57,296 bases of DNA, taken from positions 1 to 57,296 of the forward strand of contig JACQAK010000144.1 of NCBI GenBank assembly GCA_016194985.1, read 5' to 3'. Source of the stretch: Bacteroidota bacterium. Lineage in GTDB: Bacteria; Bacteroidota; Bacteroidia; B-17B0; Aurantibacillaceae. Below, one piece after another: positions 49,951 through 57,296 of this stretch; position 1 is the stretch's first letter; every line of letters starts with the position of its first letter. The notes under the pieces were generated by a model that had not been told where the DNA came from, searched no databases, and was given only the letters and a program-made list of their open reading frames with translations. Position numbers and translations under genes: made by a program.

Positions 49951-50453
49951 AATACCTGCTACTGATATTCTTTTGCACCCTGTTAAGCTCCGGTTTTTCG
50001 CAAAAGATATTGGAAATAGATATCACTCATTTCAATCATTTTAAATCCGTACAATTATTTAATGACTCGTACCTGGAATATAAACTCAAAGGTGAACACA
50101 GATACAGGATCAACAAAATGGTGAATATGAAAGATAGCCTGATTATTTTTAGTAACGATTCGAGTATTGCCCTTGGTGACATCAAGCGTATCAAATTAAG
50201 GGATGCCAATCACCTGTACCGGTTATTCAGCCGTTTCTTTTACACAGGAGGTGTTTTATTTGTGAGCCTCGATACGTTCAATAATCTGATCAATAACGAT
50301 ACACCTTATATAAAACAAACCGCGGTGATAGCCAGCGCAGGCCTGATTACTATGGGATTCCTTATTCACCAGCTTTCCATCAAACGCATTACAATTAACA
50401 AACATCATTCTCTAAGAATCCTGGAGACAGATTATCAACATTTAAATAAATAG
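49947..50453 (+). CDS. Hypothetical secreted protein
   Basis: A 168-residue protein with a signal peptide (to about 18, SSGFSQ), a beta-rich part (ILEIDITHFNHFKSVQLFNDSYLEYKLKGEHRYRINKMVNMKDSLIIFSN) and a hydrophobic stretch near 130-150. No family recognised. Its start overlaps DUF4286, and its stop lies 1 nt from that of the convergent T9SS paralog, leaving no room for a terminator. Confidence 0.7.
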   Translation: MKYLLLIFFCTLLSSGFSQKILEIDITHFNHFKSVQLFNDSYLEYKLKGEHRYRINKMVNMKDSLIIFSNDSSIALGDIKRIKLRDANHLYRLFSRFFYTGGVLFVSLDTFNNLINNDTPYIKQTAVIASAGLITMGFLIHQLSIKRITINKHHSLRILETDYQHLNK

Positions 50454-50454
50454 G

Positions 50455-51456
50455 TCATTTAATGATAACAATTTTATCAGTTTTAATAGACTTTCCTTCT
50501 ACTAAGATATGATAAAAATAGATGCCGTTCTGCAATGTCTGCTCATTCATTTGCAAAGCTCCCTTAGCTGATGGGAGTTTATAAACAGTCAATAATTTTC
50601 CCGTTACATCATATAGGTTCATGGTTGCTTCATTCATGTTTCCTAAATCATATTCCAGTGTCATTACTCCTTTGTTAGGATTTGGATATATATTGCATTT
50701 CAATTTATTTTCATGCGACTTAATATTCGTTACATAATCTAAGCTATCATATAAACTTACGCTATCAATGTAATAATACGCGCTCCCGTCATCAAAGGGG
50801 ATTGGATTAGTAGTGCCAACATATGTCGTATCACTATTTATATTTGAATTAAAATTACCAATCGTTATATACTCCTCTCCGCCCTGCGCTGTAAAATATC
50901 CATCTATTTTCGTCCAACTAATTGTATCGGTTAAATATCCTGACTGGTTTTCTACTTGTGGATTAGCTGCTATCCATGTATTACTGGAAGCCACAGACGG
51001 TTGACTAACAGAAAAATATACTCCTACTTTTTTTATTGCATATTCTATTCTGTCTGCTCGTGAGATATAAAAACTAGTATAATAAGATTTACCTGAAATT
51101 AAAGGGGTACTTAAATGCTGGTATATATATTCTTTTACTTCGAGTGTTTTATAAAAACAAACTATTCCTACATAAGAATTACCATTTATTGGATAAGCAA
51201 TTCCATTACGATTTGAGGGGACTCCAAAATGATTGCTGAACGTACAAGATGAAACATATACATCAGGTGATTGAATTTGTTGCCAATTAAACATGGATGA
51301 AAAATTCGTCACGCAATGAGAAGTCCCCGCATCCTCGGTATAACTTTCAAAACTGCCATTTCGGATTAAATTCTGAGCTATATTACTTTTAAATAAAACC
51401 ATACCAACTAATACAAGTAGTTGGTATGGTTTTAAATATTTATTTAATAATAACAA
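50455..51456 (-). CDS. T9SS cargo paralog, copy 3 of 3
   Basis: A 333-residue secreted protein: N-terminal signal peptide, a galactose-binding-like beta-sandwich (about 30-240, QNLIRNGSFESYTEDAGTSHCVTNFSSMFNWQ..., SYYTSFYISRADR, YFTAQGGEEYITIGNFNSN) and a C-terminal type A sorting domain (about 255-333, NPNKGVMTLEYDLGNM...). The best start is TTG at 51456, inside the end of copy 2; the only ATG nearby (51402) would cut the signal peptide. Ligand unknown. Confidence 0.8.
   Translation of the reverse strand: MLLLNKYLKPYQLLVLVGMVLFKSNIAQNLIRNGSFESYTEDAGTSHCVTNFSSMFNWQQIQSPDVYVSSCTFSNHFGVPSNRNGIAYPINGNSYVGIVCFYKTLEVKEYIYQHLSTPLISGKSYYTSFYISRADRIEYAIKKVGVYFSVSQPSVASSNTWIAANPQVENQSGYLTDTISWTKIDGYFTAQGGEEYITIGNFNSNINSDTTYVGTTNPIPFDDGSAYYYIDSVSLYDSLDYVTNIKSHENKLKCNIYPNPNKGVMTLEYDLGNMNEATMNLYDVTGKLLTVYKLPSAKGALQMNEQTLQNGIYFYHILVEGKSIKTDKIVIIK
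51395..51433. other. Junction hairpin between T9SS paralog copies 2 and 3 (16-bp stem)
   Basis: Perfect inverted repeat AAAACCATACCAACTA / TAGTTGGTATGGTTTT (51395-51410 and 51418-51433), 7-nt loop. It lies within the signal-peptide codons of copy 3, 6 nt after the stop codon of copy 2 (minus strand). It could be a terminator, an attenuator or a processing site. Confidence 0.85.
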
Positions 51457-52438
51457 TTTTATCAGTTTTAATAGATTTTCCTTCTACTAAGATATGATAA
51501 AAATAAATGCCATTCTCTAATGTTTGCTCATTCATTTGCAACATTCCCTTGTTAGATTGAAGCTTATAAGTACTCATTAATTTACCAGTTACATCATATA
51601 AATTCATGGTTGCTTCATTCGTGTTTCCTAAATCATATTCCAGTGTCATGACTCCTTTGTTAGGATTAGGATATAGACTGCATTTCAATTTATTTTCATG
51701 CGACTTAATATTAGTTACATAATCTAAACTATCATATAAACTTACACTGTCTATGTAGTAGTATGACATTCCTGAATCAAATGGGATTGGATTGGTTGTC
51801 CCAGAGTTTAAGGTATCTGTATCAGCATTTGAATTAAAATTGCCAATAGTTATATATTCCTCTCCCCCCTGTGCAGTAAAATAACCTTCTATTTTTGTCC
51901 ATCCAACAGTATCTGTTAAATAGCCTGATTGACTTTCTACCTGAGGGATTGCGGAAACATAAGCATTCGCTACTGCTGTAGGTTGTGCTACTGATAGATA
52001 TAGGCCTATGTTTTTTATGGCATATTTAGATCTATCCGCTTTAGATATATAAAAACTAGTATAATAAGATTTACCTGAAATTAAGGGGGAGCTTAAATGT
52101 TGAAAAATATATTCTTTGGTTTCATAAGGAAGATTGAGTACTCCTATTCCTACATACGCGTTACCATGTTTAGGATAAGAAACTCCCAAGTTGTTATTTG
52201 GAACTCCAAAATGATTGCTGAACGTGCAGGAAGAAACAAATACATCGGGGGATTGTATTTGTTCCCAATTAAACATTAACGAAAAATTCGTCACGCAATG
52301 AGAAGTCCCCGCATCCTCGGTATAACTTTCAAAACTGCCATTTCGGATTAAATTCTGAGCTATGTTACTTTTAAATAAAACCATACAAACTACTATAAGC
52401 AGTTTGTATGAGTTAAAATATTTATTTAATAACAACAA
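51440..52438 (-). CDS. T9SS cargo paralog, copy 2 of 3
   Basis: A 332-residue paralog with the same plan as copies 1 and 3. The 5-prime third is almost identical at the DNA level to copy 3 (51299-51404 against 52281-52386, offset 982 bp), so this pair is the youngest. Start TTG at 52438 or at the next codon, also TTG (52435), inside the end of copy 1 (17-nt overlap); the sole internal ATG (VCMVLF) would leave too short a signal peptide. Sorting domain at about 255-332. Confidence 0.8.
   Translation of the reverse strand: MLLLNKYFNSYKLLIVVCMVLFKSNIAQNLIRNGSFESYTEDAGTSHCVTNFSLMFNWEQIQSPDVFVSSCTFSNHFGVPNNNLGVSYPKHGNAYVGIGVLNLPYETKEYIFQHLSSPLISGKSYYTSFYISKADRSKYAIKNIGLYLSVAQPTAVANAYVSAIPQVESQSGYLTDTVGWTKIEGYFTAQGGEEYITIGNFNSNADTDTLNSGTTNPIPFDSGMSYYYIDSVSLYDSLDYVTNIKSHENKLKCSLYPNPNKGVMTLEYDLGNTNEATMNLYDVTGKLMSTYKLQSNKGMLQMNEQTLENGIYFYHILVEGKSIKTDKIVIIK
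52382..52410. other. Junction hairpin between T9SS paralog copies 1 and 2
   Basis: Inverted repeat CATACAAACT / AGTTTGTATG (52382-52391 and 52401-52410), 9-nt loop, at the same relative place as the hairpin at 51395-51433. One base pair is changed on both sides relative to that hairpin (C:G there, A:T here). Confidence 0.75.
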
Positions 52439-53444
52439 TTTTATCAGTTTTAATAGATTTTCCTTCTACTAAGATATGATAAAAATAAATACCGTTCTGT
52501 AATATTTGCTCATTCATTTGCAACATTCCCTTGTTAGATGGAAGCTTATAAGTATTCATTAATTTACCAGTAACATCGTACAAATTCATAGTGGCTTCGC
52601 TTACATCACCCAAATCATATTCCAGTGTCATTACTCCTTTGTTTGGATTTGGATATAGGTTCCATTTCAATTTATTTTCATACGATTTAATATTAGTTAC
52701 ATAGTCTAAGCTGTCATATAGACTTACGCTGTCTAAATAATAGTAAGCAGTTCCAGTATCAAAAGGAATAGGATTTGTTGTGCCAGAATTTAATGTGTCA
52801 GTATTTGCATTGCTATTAAAATTACCAATGGTAATATATTGTTCCCCTCCTTGTGCGGTAAAGTAACCTTCAATTTTGACCCAATTAACTGTGTCGGTTA
52901 AAAAACCATTTTGATTTTCAACTTGTGGTATTGCTTGAATATATGGATTGGAAACTACAGTTGGCTGATTAATCGAAAAATAAGCACCCACATTTTTTAT
53001 GGAATAAGAAGCTTTATCAGCTTTTGAAATGAAAAAACTTGTAAAATAAGTTTTACCTCCAATAAGAGGATTGATTAAGTGTTGATAGATATATTCTTTT
53101 GTTTCATTTGGTAAATTTATGAGCCCTAATCCAACATAAGCAATTCCATTTTTTGGGTTTGAATTTCCAAATGTATTACTTGGAACTCCATAATGATTTG
53201 AAAATGTACATGGTTTTACAAAAACATCAGGAGAAAATATCTGTTGCCAATTAAACATGGATGAAAAATTAGTTACACAATGAGAAGTCCCTGCATCCTC
53301 CGTATAATTTTCAAAACTTCCATTAACAATTAAATTTTGAGCAATATTGTTTTTTAATAAAAGCAGTAGGGCTAATAGCTCTACTGCTTTTAAAGCTTTA
53401 TTATTTGATGACAATAATTTTATCAGTTTTAGAAACATTTCCAT
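52422..53444 (-). CDS. T9SS cargo paralog, copy 1 of 3
   Basis: A 340-residue paralog, more diverged than copies 2 and 3 (QNLIVNGSFENYTEDAGTSHCVTNFSSMFNWQQIFSPDVFVKPCTFSNHYG). Signal peptide, beta-sandwich domain, and sorting domain with NPNKGVMTLEYDLGDVSE. The ATG at 53444 lies 44 nt inside the adhesin gene. By homology with the other copies the start may instead be TTG at 53414. The four genes 57296-50455 are one minus-strand unit with overlapping ends. Confidence 0.8.
   Translation of the reverse strand: MEMFLKLIKLLSSNNKALKAVELLALLLLLKNNIAQNLIVNGSFENYTEDAGTSHCVTNFSSMFNWQQIFSPDVFVKPCTFSNHYGVPSNTFGNSNPKNGIAYVGLGLINLPNETKEYIYQHLINPLIGGKTYFTSFFISKADKASYSIKNVGAYFSINQPTVVSNPYIQAIPQVENQNGFLTDTVNWVKIEGYFTAQGGEQYITIGNFNSNANTDTLNSGTTNPIPFDTGTAYYYLDSVSLYDSLDYVTNIKSYENKLKWNLYPNPNKGVMTLEYDLGDVSEATMNLYDVTGKLMNTYKLPSNKGMLQMNEQILQNGIYFYHILVEGKSIKTDKIVVIK
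53359..53391. other. Junction hairpin between adhesin and T9SS paralog copy 1
   Basis: Inverted repeat AAAAGCAGTAG / CTACTGCTTTT (53359-53369 and 53381-53391) with an 11-nt loop, again inside the signal-peptide codons of the next protein and 9 nt after the upstream stop. The sequence is unrelated to the other two junction hairpins, but the position is the same. Confidence 0.75.
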
Positions 53445-56400
53445 TCAATATAATACTGTAATAATAAACGCCGTTGGTTAGATGTTGTTGATTAATTTCT
53501 AATTTACCAATAGAACTTTGTAAACTATAAACATTGACCAATTTACCGTTTATATCAAAGATACGCATTTCTCCTTTCGGTTCTGCACCTAAATCATATT
53601 CCAGTGTCATGACTCCTTTATTAGGATTAGGAAATAAACGAACATTTACAGTCGTATTATTGTTAACTGTTTTAGTAGTGGCTGCTTTCCGTTGATTATA
53701 CTCCGGATTACAATTTTCTTCAAACTCCACAATCCTGTTGCTTACATTATTTACCAATACCCTTGCCTGTGTAATCACATTGCCGTATTTATCCAAACAG
53801 CTATTCGCAATAGTCATTAAATCTGCTAATTCAGTACCATCAAATACAGGATTTTTTGCTATCGGCATCACCTGCGTGGTATCGTATTGAGGCTGATAGC
53901 TTAAATATTTCAATAGCAATTCGTTCACTCGTTTTTGATATACTTCAATAGTGTTATTAGCCGTTAAACCACTATTGATACTTTGAGCTGTTTGATAATC
54001 CTGACCGGCTATCGCTTCATTGATAGTAACTATTGCCTGATAATTGCTATTTTGATTGGCATTATAAAACTCATTTAAGGCATTGGTTGTATCAATGCTT
54101 TGTTTACTGAGTAATTCATATACCAGCTGTTTATTACGGTATTGGGTCTCGTTTTGGTATAACTCATAAAATGTGGTATCGGATGCTAAAGCTTCGTATA
54201 AGGTAGCATTAGTACCGTCATGTTCCTGTGCTGTCCTCATGGTCATAGCTTCATTATTATCTCCTCCCATCATTCTTAAGGACAAACAACTTTCTCCTGA
54301 AAGACCTGTCTGTACATCTATTCCTAAATTTAGCCCTGTATTATAAGGGAATCCATTACTTGAATAATTCTGTGTAGGTTGATAAGGACTGCCCGATTTG
54401 ACATAAAATCTGGAATTTGTATTGGCCGTGCTGGAACTTTCTGTATAAGTTTCCGCATATTGTACGGATCCTCCTGTAAACCCACTCCACTCATTATCAT
54501 GAGTTGTATTAGTCGTACGTCCCTGATCTCCAATTTGCCCATTCACACTTAATACAAAGCCCTGATAGGTGCCGTTCATAACGTTTTTAACTACTTTGTT
54601 AAGGCTGGTGCCTGTAAACTGCAAACAGCGCCCCATGTTGCTCATGGTATTGCAATTAACCTGTCCGGCTGTTCCACTGCTTGTATTAAACCAAATACCC
54701 TTTACGGCAGTATAATAACTTGAGTTGATAGTGCCATTACTGGTTATGTTGGGGTTATTAGCCACTACTGCATCTGTGCAGCTTTGCACATAAATACCGG
54801 TGCGAGCATAATTATTAATTTGTGATGATGTAACACCCGGTACTCCTATCATTTTAGCAGCCGATAAATTAATGGTTGGATTACTGTTTATTTGCAAACC
54901 ACCTTTTACATTATAGGCTTTAATACCATTATACACATTTTGTATGGTATTGTTTTTTACGGTTAACAATCCTGTTCCCAAATTGGTAGTACTTGTTGGT
55001 TGGTCTACCTGTATGGCCTGTCGGCAATAACCGTTTGTGGCAGGAGCCTCAATTAAATTATCTTCTATTTTTATAAAAGTGGCATAACCATAGCTCGTAT
55101 TAATGTTATGAGATGTGTATATCCCTGTAGCCTGATTAAGTATATAGTTGTTTTTAACCGTGGCATTAGATGCAATGTCTTTTATATAAACAGCACTTTG
55201 AGCTTTGTAATAGCTATATAACGAAGACGGTGTTACGGTAGGAGGAACATCTGTTTCGGCGGCTGTAAATACATTACCTTTTACATAAGGCTCCTGATAG
55301 CTGGTAATAGCAATGCCCTTACCACAGTTCTCAAACTTATTACCTCCCGGAAACGGATTACCACCTGTAGGTGTAGAGGCACTTACTTTTCCCACACGTG
55401 TGTAGTATACCTGATTGGTAGCAGTTATAATGGCGCTAAACGCAACGCCTATTTCGTCAGGTCCGGCTGGAGGTGGTGGCGGTGGAAAACCAATAAGCGC
55501 TACCTGTTTGGCACTACCTGTAATATTAATAAAATGGTTATTAAAGGCTTTAGGAGAAGCATTTTCGGCATACACACCAAAGTCAAGGTTCTCAAAACGG
55601 TTAGTACCACCTGTGCCTGTACTATCGCCTATAATTACCGGAATTTCTTCAAGGTTATATAAATAAATCCCTACAGCACCTCTTGGAAAATTAGTGTATG
55701 TGATGCTTGTATTATTAATGTTGTTATAAGCATACGCATATACCGTGCTTGTTTTTAAGGTTAGTTGTGGTGAGGTTGAACTCGGCTGGCTTGTAATGGT
55801 AGTGCCTGTCACCGATAATCCTTCTCTTCCATTGGAACTATTAGCCCTTGCGTAATTTCTTAAATGGATAGAAATGTAGTTATTATTTAAAACCGAATTG
55901 GTCACATTAATAAAGTTTGCAGATCCTGTAGAGGAACCATTCGCTCCGGCATGAGTAATTCCCATATACATGTCTTCGATGCGTGAATTGGTTACATTCA
56001 CAATGCCCGGTACGCCAACACCATCATTAATAAAAATACCTCCCCATAAATCGGTGCAGGAATAAATGGTACAATTACTGAAAGTAACGGTTACCCCAGT
56101 ATTGATATTGATAGAAGCGGTGGGTGCCATTCTTAAAATGTAATTAGTCATGCTGCTGTTAGCTGTAAATGTGATACTACCCAATACATCAACCACAGCT
56201 CCTGAACCATTAGAGTTGTTGGAATAGTTGGTTGTTGTTGTGGCACTTCCTATAGAAAAACTGGCCGACTGGCAGCAGTATTGGCCTTTTACATCAACCT
56301 GAACAGTTCTTGTTGTTGTACATCCGCTTCCCGTTCCGGTTACGGTATAAACGGTAGTGATGGTTGGTGATACAGATATGGAGGCGGTTGTTGGGCCTGT

Positions 56401-57296
56401 ATTCCAACTATAGGTTGTAGCCCCACTGGCAGTTAAGGTTACGCTTTGGCTATAGCAAATAGCTGTAGAGGCAGTGACACTTAATGGTGGACTTACAATA
56501 GCAGTAACGATTTTAGTATTACTGCATCCCGTCACAGTACTTGTACCTGTAACAGTGTACGTAGTCGTAATAGTTGGGGTTACTGTCGTAACTGATGTTG
56601 TAGGGCCTGTACTCCACGTATAAGTATTAGCACCACCCGCGGTAAGCATTACGGTCTGAGACGGGCATACTGCCGTTGGACTGGCTACTGCCGTTACTGT
56701 AGGAGAAGCTATAACCGTTACACTAACAGTTTTTGTATTACTGCAACCATTTGTAGTGCCTGTTACGGCATAAACAGTAGTGGACGAAGGAGATACTGAA
56801 ATAGTACTGGTTGTAGAGCCTGTATTCCAACTATAAGTTGTTGCTCCGCTGGCGGTTAATACGGTAGATGTTCCTGAACAAATAGTGGCATTACTTACTG
56901 CTACAGTTGGCGTTGCATTTACTGTAACACTCACAGTTTTCGTATTACTGCAGCCATTGGTAATCCCCGTTACAGTATAAACAGTAGTTGATGTTGGTGA
57001 TACTGAAACAGTATTGGTTGTGACTCCCGTACTCCAACTATAGGTTGTTGCTCCGCTGGCGGTTAATACGGTGGATGTTCCTGAACAAATAGTGGCATTA
57101 TTGACGGCTACAGTTGGCGTTGCATTTACTGTAACACTCACAGTTTTCGTATTACTACAGCCATTGGTAATCCCCGTTACAGTATAAACAGTAGTTGATG
57201 TTGGTGATACTGAAACAGTATTGGTTGTGGCTCCCGTACTCCAACTATAGGTTGTTGCTCCGCTGGCGGTTAATACGGTGGATGTTCCTGAACAAA
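53401..57296 (-). CDS. Giant T9SS adhesin, Ig-like repeats and beta-helix (5-prime end cut by window)
   Basis: An open frame runs through the right window edge, so at least 1298 codons are present and the true start is outside. From N- to C-terminus: Ig/PKD-like repeats of about 69 residues, each with paired cysteines (ICSGTSTVLTASGATTYSW... and NGCSNTKTVSVTV), then a right-handed beta-helix region rich in VTNS.., N and T, then a helical stretch and a type A sorting domain (VRLFPNPNKGVMTLEYDLG...KTDKIIVIK). Probably a surface adhesin or sugar-binding protein. The apparent ATG at 57141 is internal. Confidence 0.85.
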   Translation of the reverse strand, partial: CSGTSTVLTASGATTYSWSTGATTNTVSVSPTSTTVYTVTGITNGCSNTKTVSVTVNATPTVAVNNATICSGTSTVLTASGATTYSWSTGVTTNTVSVSPTSTTVYTVTGITNGCSNTKTVSVTVNATPTVAVSNATICSGTSTVLTASGATTYSWNTGSTTSTISVSPSSTTVYAVTGTTNGCSNTKTVSVTVIASPTVTAVASPTAVCPSQTVMLTAGGANTYTWSTGPTTSVTTVTPTITTTYTVTGTSTVTGCSNTKIVTAIVSPPLSVTASTAICYSQSVTLTASGATTYSWNTGPTTASISVSPTITTVYTVTGTGSGCTTTRTVQVDVKGQYCCQSASFSIGSATTTTNYSNNSNGSGAVVDVLGSITFTANSSMTNYILRMAPTASININTGVTVTFSNCTIYSCTDLWGGIFINDGVGVPGIVNVTNSRIEDMYMGITHAGANGSSTGSANFINVTNSVLNNNYISIHLRNYARANSSNGREGLSVTGTTITSQPSSTSPQLTLKTSTVYAYAYNNINNTSITYTNFPRGAVGIYLYNLEEIPVIIGDSTGTGGTNRFENLDFGVYAENASPKAFNNHFINITGSAKQVALIGFPPPPPPAGPDEIGVAFSAIITATNQVYYTRVGKVSASTPTGGNPFPGGNKFENCGKGIAITSYQEPYVKGNVFTAAETDVPPTVTPSSLYSYYKAQSAVYIKDIASNATVKNNYILNQATGIYTSHNINTSYGYATFIKIEDNLIEAPATNGYCRQAIQVDQPTSTTNLGTGLLTVKNNTIQNVYNGIKAYNVKGGLQINSNPTINLSAAKMIGVPGVTSSQINNYARTGIYVQSCTDAVVANNPNITSNGTINSSYYTAVKGIWFNTSSGTAGQVNCNTMSNMGRCLQFTGTSLNKVVKNVMNGTYQGFVLSVNGQIGDQGRTTNTTHDNEWSGFTGGSVQYAETYTESSSTANTNSRFYVKSGSPYQPTQNYSSNGFPYNTGLNLGIDVQTGLSGESCLSLRMMGGDNNEAMTMRTAQEHDGTNATLYEALASDTTFYELYQNETQYRNKQLVYELLSKQSIDTTNALNEFYNANQNSNYQAIVTINEAIAGQDYQTAQSINSGLTANNTIEVYQKRVNELLLKYLSYQPQYDTTQVMPIAKNPVFDGTELADLMTIANSCLDKYGNVITQARVLVNNVSNRIVEFEENCNPEYNQRKAATTKTVNNNTTVNVRLFPNPNKGVMTLEYDLGAEPKGEMRIFDINGKLVNVYSLQSSIGKLEINQQHLTNGVYYYSIILNGNVSKTDKIIVIK
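56697..57296 (-). repeat. 207-bp tandem repeats in the adhesin (69-residue Ig-like units)
   Basis: The unit starting at 56904 and the one starting at 57111 differ at only 2 of 186 compared positions. The unit at about 56697 is clearly related but more diverged. The array continues past the window edge. Confidence 0.9.

Follow-up and report, generated by a model that had tools for sequence, protein, structure and literature searches.

The window, i.e., the whole stretch of 57,296 nt analysed here, contains a minus-strand array of four T9SS genes, in which a large gene is followed by three small paralogues (Table 1). PF18962 (Por_Secre_tail) was detected above the Pfam cut-off at the C terminus of all four array proteins. 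TIGR04183 was above cut-off in the three small proteins, and the large protein as given had no NCBIfam match. The N-termini of all three small proteins, read from inferred starts, were judged by eye to be signal-peptide-like. Purifying selection acts on the mature parts of the paralogues (dN/dS 0.08-0.15). Positions 56720-57296 of the large T9SS frame, up to the window end, consist of a 207-bp tandem repeat (2.8 copies, 91% matches). At the other end of the array (50453-50455), the last gene converges on a plus-strand frame whose final base is 50453; the two tails are one base apart, and a stem is absent between them.

Table 1. Genes, hairpins and short motifs of the T9SS array in the window.
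Feature	Positions	Strand	Remarks
Large T9SS protein, upstream-most of the array	53401-57296	minus	at least 1297 aa, open at the window end; stop TAA 53401-53403; Por_Secre_tail over cut-off
Small T9SS paralogue 1	52422-53444	minus	340 aa if the start is ATG 53444 (alternative TTG 53414); stop 52422-52424
Small T9SS paralogue 2	51440-52438	minus	332 aa from TTG 52438; stop TAA 51440-51442
Small T9SS paralogue 3, last of the array	50455-51456	minus	333 aa from TTG 51456; no stem after the gene
Junction 1 hairpin	51395-51433	minus	16 bp, A-tract paired with U-tract, TTTTATTT; within signal-peptide codons of paralogue 3
Junction 2 hairpin	52382-52410	minus	10 bp (14 with G-U), then GTTTTATTT; within signal-peptide codons of paralogue 2
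Junction 3 hairpin	53359-53391	minus	11 bp, then TTTTATTA; within signal-peptide codons of paralogue 1
Direct repeat TATTTAAAA, copy before the stem	51430-51438	minus	read from sequence
Direct repeat TATTTAAAA, copy after the stem	51387-51395	minus	read from sequence
TATCTTAG, candidate internal promoter box resembling the TAnnTTTG -7 box	51487-51494	minus	about 38 nt before TTG; coincides with conserved ILV codons

The three window hairpins

A preliminary description of this DNA had placed an inverted repeat over the signal-peptide codons at each junction of the array, 6-12 nt past the upstream stop. All three stems are present where it had put them, and they are far above chance: RNA folding z-scores were -6.5, -6.3, and -5.0, with none of 200 shuffles as good in each case. 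For comparison, the z-score was +0.59 where paralogue 3 closes the array (50455). The distance from the upstream stop to the stem is 6, 11, and 9 nt for junctions 1, 2, and 3, respectively. The stem at junction 1 comprises 16 perfect pairs and a loop of 7 nt, the 10 pairs at junction 2 are Watson-Crick and become 14 once G-U is counted, and the 11 pairs at junction 3 enclose an 11-nt loop that is partly able to pair again. It is their length that makes the stems unusual; a terminator-consensus scan of the region, which found four sites against a shuffle mean of 4.2, would not by itself have flagged them. A search of positions 50300-57296 yielded no matches to Rfam family models at E up to 1.

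The first two stems had been described as homologous and distinguished by a paired C:G to A:T change. Over 16 aligned pairs, we found that one double-sided change, along with two one-sided changes that still allow G-U pairing; two outer A:T pairs are broken in stem 2. The paired change recodes both arms (Q/K and G/C). The third stem, by contrast with its earlier description as unrelated in sequence, turned out to be the same homologous element: its stem has diverged to another sequence, yet it aligns in register with the first two. Each downstream frame had also been proposed to begin inside the end of the upstream gene, and an overlap with the stop was found at all three junctions, as judged from the inferred start codons (Table 1).

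Homologous junctions and conservation of pairing

Homologues of the junctions were collected by a protein search of the window's own genome and 59 relatives (60 in all), a flank pattern applied to 20 genomes of the genus, and inspection. Together, these sources added five intact junctions, of which G018 and G016 each had two and G012 had one; the flank-pattern matches were mostly AT-rich and scattered. A covariance model built from the eight junctions and run over 87 family genomes recovered all eight, a ninth junction in another genus (G098, E 2e-9), and four weak matches (L258-L261, E 0.03-0.04). The weak matches were dropped for their ordinary-terminator look in contig orientation. In total, 13 homologous junctions were available. 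Nine were intact and came from five genomes, with three in the window and six elsewhere, including the one in another genus. The stem of one G019 junction is interrupted by a contig end, and another G019 junction has a different stem, closer to the cleavage site. In the remaining two, the second junction of G018 and that of G009, the stem and the signal peptide were lost together, seemingly when a deletion joined the TTTAAAA repeats on either side. In G018 (L091, contig C241, 2436-3192), the two small genes are separated by a fragment like the 3' end of the large gene, including its sorting domain, which suggests that the large-gene end and a small gene were duplicated as a unit.

When the nine intact junctions were aligned over 16 stem pairs, 97.1% of the cells were paired. 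Changes on both sides were seen at nine of the 16 pairs, and as many were reached in two of 500 shuffles. Doubly changed cells, which count sequences among related copies and not independent events, numbered 28, compared to a shuffled mean of 7.1, and no shuffle out of 500 was as high. Sliding the partner by 1-3 columns as a control lowered the paired cells to 36-49%, and eight sequences gave the same picture as nine. The letters of the stem vary freely; the columns of the A-tract and the U-tract are nearly invariant. The distance from stop to stem in the relatives is similar to the 6-11 nt in the window. The preliminary description had asked for conserved pairing in related genomes, and pairing is indeed kept in the homologous loci, the two stems lost among 13 junctions having gone with their signal peptides. 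It had counted ATG starts downstream of the hairpins as evidence against it; we found no ATG inside or after the stem that is common to the intact junctions.

At all nine intact junctions, the frame of the small protein runs across the stem without meeting a stop codon. TTG stands at -14 from the upstream stop in eight of them, and junction 3 has ATG 53444 plus TTG 53414 at -11. Conservation of the TTG is no proof of its use as a start, because it lies in the conserved KIVIIK tail codons. In 3000 trials of synonymous recoding per junction, the stem was never matched for seven junctions, including junctions 1 and 2 of the window, and was matched once for another. The value for junction 3 (723 of 3000) is not a fair score, as the script allowed loops of up to 10 nt and this loop has 11. 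For the paralogues starting at 52438 and 51456, the synonymous difference (pS) was 0.18 over the 28 signal-peptide codons and 0.56 over the mature protein, in keeping with constraint on silent sites or homogenisation of the junction; the contrast was weaker in the other two paralogue comparisons (0.50 vs. 0.67 and 0.63 vs. 0.70).

Stems after T9SS genes and their likeness to terminators

We scored 366 signal-peptide genes in 1.40 Mb of sequence from G000 and relatives for stems. The resulting rates and p-values are inflated, since many regions were picked for array homologues and the copies are related: a stem score of at least 24 was found in 12 of 35 signal peptides ending within 80 nt of the stop of a T9SS gene and in 0 of 38 at the same distance after non-T9SS genes (p = 4.5e-5; also 0 of 38 at a score of at least 20), and a score of at least 28 in 11 of 35 after a T9SS stop and in four of 331 among all others (p = 1.3e-9). 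In three of these four exceptions (L219; L233 at 7175; L216 at 112), inspection revealed a preceding T9SS-like end that the script had missed. Junction 3 scored just 14.5, owing to the loop limit.

Among T9SS gene ends, stems scoring at least 24 were equally common whether the end was nested in the next signal peptide (11/35), lay before another codirectional frame (16/50), or was free (29/90, a count that includes the G012 junction, which is close to the end of its contig). Ends of non-T9SS genes had such stems in 0/38, 11/325, and 94/545 cases, respectively. These rates suggest that the stem belongs to the upstream gene and forms its 3' end.

An independent sample was taken from regions of G031, G026, and G043, picked by eye according to how their sorting domains are spaced and blind to stems. 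Its 38 tight T9SS junctions contained four stems scoring at least 28, three of them inside the next signal peptide and one (L263) before the next ATG. The rate of 3/38 exceeded that of other signal peptides (4/331, p = 0.026), a comparison set that is a different sample with a slightly different stretch and shorter loops, and was far under the 11/35 of the discovery set. None of the 38 junctions had a window-type stem.

No comparable stem followed any of four array-terminal genes (that of the window and, by eye in 100 nt, those of L091, L092, and L095). The stem therefore goes with the junction and not with every gene copy, which argues against a terminator of every gene. Generic signal-peptide hairpins were rejected as an explanation. 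In G000, the 5% recoding level was reached by 15 of 256 signal-peptide genes and by 7.9% of 1518 internal windows; in a stricter set, the proportions reaching it were 11.1% for signal peptides (n = 135), 3.4% for internal windows (n = 675), and 7.5% for other gene starts (n = 371). On the two surveys together, hairpins are not a general feature of signal peptides. Strong stems (score of at least 20) were commoner in signal peptides of G000 (6/256 genes) than in internal windows (6/1518).

Window-type stems share with ordinary T9SS terminators of the same genomes an A-tract, a near-perfect stem of similar energy, and a U-tract, located in the ordinary terminators 12-54 nt after the stop. The ordinary terminators lie outside the frame of the next gene, whereas window-type stems lie in codons with the frame kept. 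Median core energies were -14.4 and -14.0 kcal/mol, and median U-tract scores -4.88 and -5.30, for window-type stems and ordinary T9SS terminators, respectively (10 and 28 rows). The U-tract score placed eight of 10 window-type tails in the best 0.5% of background; the two poor tails (6.7% and 13.7% of background) belong to junctions 2 and 3, where the script trimmed a different stem. An A-tract before and a U-tract after the stem, as TTTTATTT or TTTTATTA, were present at all nine intact junctions, and the U-tract of window-type stems is interrupted (TTTTATTT). A cruder count of at least five U in the eight bases after the whole stem was positive for two of 13 nested T9SS stems, compared to 10/17 and 12/35 elsewhere, but is unfair where the U-tract is paired and also reflects nested stems truly lacking one. 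The stems have the stable stem-loop of an intrinsic terminator (z -5.0 to -6.5, 97.1% paired), and the upstream stop lies within ribosome reach of the stem, as in the rph-pyrE type of attenuation (6-11 nt in the window). In G005 (L223, contig C3, about 11439), a signal-peptide-like frame also contains a terminator-like stem, whose tail is long and T-rich; no ATG, GTG, or TTG precedes the hydrophobic stretch of this frame.

A second class of stems was found at tight T9SS junctions of G045, G049, G005, and G029 (L244), and elsewhere in G000. These stems are uninterrupted, some with several G-U pairs, and lie toward the cleavage end of the signal peptide. None of the 10 scored reached the 5% background level of the U-tract score. 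In several of them, the start abuts or overlaps the upstream stop, as GTGA (L219), TAATG (L112), TAATATG (L209), or a TTG right after TAA (L224). The L245 junction of G029 is of the window type, with both A- and U-tracts. In a check of a multicopper-oxidase-like family for stems without a U-tract, 25 of 30 loci plus L113 were tabulated. Stems scoring at least 22 occurred in five of the 26, which rules out the stem as a conserved element of this family, and the general claim made below is therefore kept modest. Three of the seven junctions of up to 80 nt had a stem (L302, L303, and L113; not L307, L308, L310, and L319), as did two of the 19 loci beyond that set (L309 and L328). At L113 and L114 (G000, contigs C64 and C206) and L274 (G026, contig C2), i.e., in two genera, a T9SS multicopper-oxidase-like gene and its next neighbour carry signal-peptide stems; some of the differences between these stems are paired, and the genes were named by motif.

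Interpretation of the hairpins

With slightly better than even confidence, we interpret each hairpin as a leaky intrinsic terminator (a transcriptional attenuator), probably ribosome-gated, which belongs to the 3' end of the upstream T9SS gene and is placed in the signal-peptide codons of the next. Since the next gene starts within the region of the upstream stop, its signal-peptide codons would be where the terminator falls, and these encode the part of a protein most tolerant of sequence change. RNA polymerase would halt at the hairpin with some probability. A ribosome ending the upstream gene, or translating the overlapping frame from TTG, could cover or melt the stem and let the polymerase pass. 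The large first protein would be expressed most and the small paralogues less, in steps that depend on translation. A free stem sequence between nearly invariant A- and U-tracts fits the needs of a terminator and not those of a sequence-specific binding site, and since the mature downstream proteins are under purifying selection, the stems must be read through. The preliminary description had left the choice between a translation-coupled attenuator, a terminator with occasional read-through, and an RNase site setting cargo ratios. A terminator or attenuator with read-through fits best, given the tracts around the freely varying stem and the selection on the downstream genes.

An RNase has its place in another reading, which we consider unlikely: the stem may be a 3'-end protector or processing site, with ends made downstream by Rho or RNase and trimmed back to the stem by exonucleases, leaving the upstream mRNA more stable than the downstream one. 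Such a site would allow a free stem sequence, and the second set of T9SS junctions does have long stems without a U-tract (0/10 at the 5% background level), but it has no need for the nearly invariant A- and U-tracts of the window-type stems. We are more doubtful of an element acting on translation, in which the stem would slow or hold ribosomes near a weak TTG start, or as the signal peptide emerges, and so tune reinitiation or export. The stem is well placed for this, as the frame in whose first codons it lies is TTG-led and overlaps the upstream stop in eight of nine junctions, and starts abut the upstream stop in other genomes too; however, a role in start or export should also show behind non-T9SS genes, where strong stems are absent (0/38 at a score of at least 20), and the conserved U-tract would be left without explanation.

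Mutation could keep the arms paired without selection: quasi-palindrome correction would template one arm from the other, duplication would spread the junction, and pairing would persist without a function. Paired differences outnumber one-sided ones by 168 to 18 over all sequence pairs outside the AAAA:UUUU part, and the flanking direct repeats with the two collapsed copies point to a slippage-prone site. We nevertheless give this a small probability, as the reading frame and the A/U tracts are also kept and strong stems follow T9SS stops but not other genes at the same distance (12/35 vs. 0/38). Least probable, and very unlikely in our judgement, is that each small gene has its own promoter within the upstream sorting domain, the stem terminating upstream transcripts only or being a promoter-proximal attenuator: TAnnTTTG is enriched 10-49 nt before ATG in the genus (31 vs. 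about 4.6 expected, 162 genes) and TATCTTAG is at the matching place in five of the six class-A junctions listed, but its letters also encode the conserved ILV of the sorting domain, junction 3 has no motif at that place, and a -33 element was not seen by eye. A programmed frameshift into the next frame was not favoured, as it would need +1 and bury the sorting domain in a fusion, and the near-perfect pairing of the stems, together with their differing sequences, led us to set aside integron attC and REP elements.

A leaky terminator of this kind has partial parallels in E. coli. The pyrE attenuator sits in an intercistronic gap, and the pyrBI leader attenuator is a terminator within an open frame, that of the leader peptide, whose translation can block its formation. 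The window stems resemble that of pyrBI in lying inside an open frame, but their frame encodes a signal peptide, and the secreted protein that carries it is under selection. The closest known case is that of rph-pyrE, where a terminator-like stem likewise follows the upstream stop and the distance between stop and attenuator is described as governing read-through via translation-transcription coupling (PMC2784333). Unlike there, the window stems are inside the codons of the next gene and recur at successive paralogue junctions. The 3' ends mapped by experiment inside E. coli ORFs are described as lying mostly deep in genes, a few of them being formed by intrinsic terminators (PMC7815308), whereas the window sites, known from sequence alone, are at gene starts after a T9SS gene. 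For Flavobacterium psychrophilum, short leaders (median 24 bp) and initiation not reliant on Shine-Dalgarno are described (PMC9723704). Our literature search, which covered open-licence papers, found no description of terminators in signal-peptide codons.

More tentatively, and with the odds in our view against it, tight tandem T9SS cargo genes across Bacteroidia may keep a hairpin of the upstream 3' end in the next signal-peptide codons, recurrently and convergently, with or without a U-tract. The signal peptide would then carry two codes, and the array would be a translation-gated expression ladder. If our interpretation is right, one short stretch of DNA would serve as upstream terminator, gene overlap, and export signal, and terminator searches that skip coding DNA would overlook such sites. 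This would explain how tandem secreted paralogues can be packed without intergenic space and yet possibly be expressed unequally, and would give Bacteroidota, in which initiation is not reliant on Shine-Dalgarno, a simple system for testing how transcription and translation are coupled.
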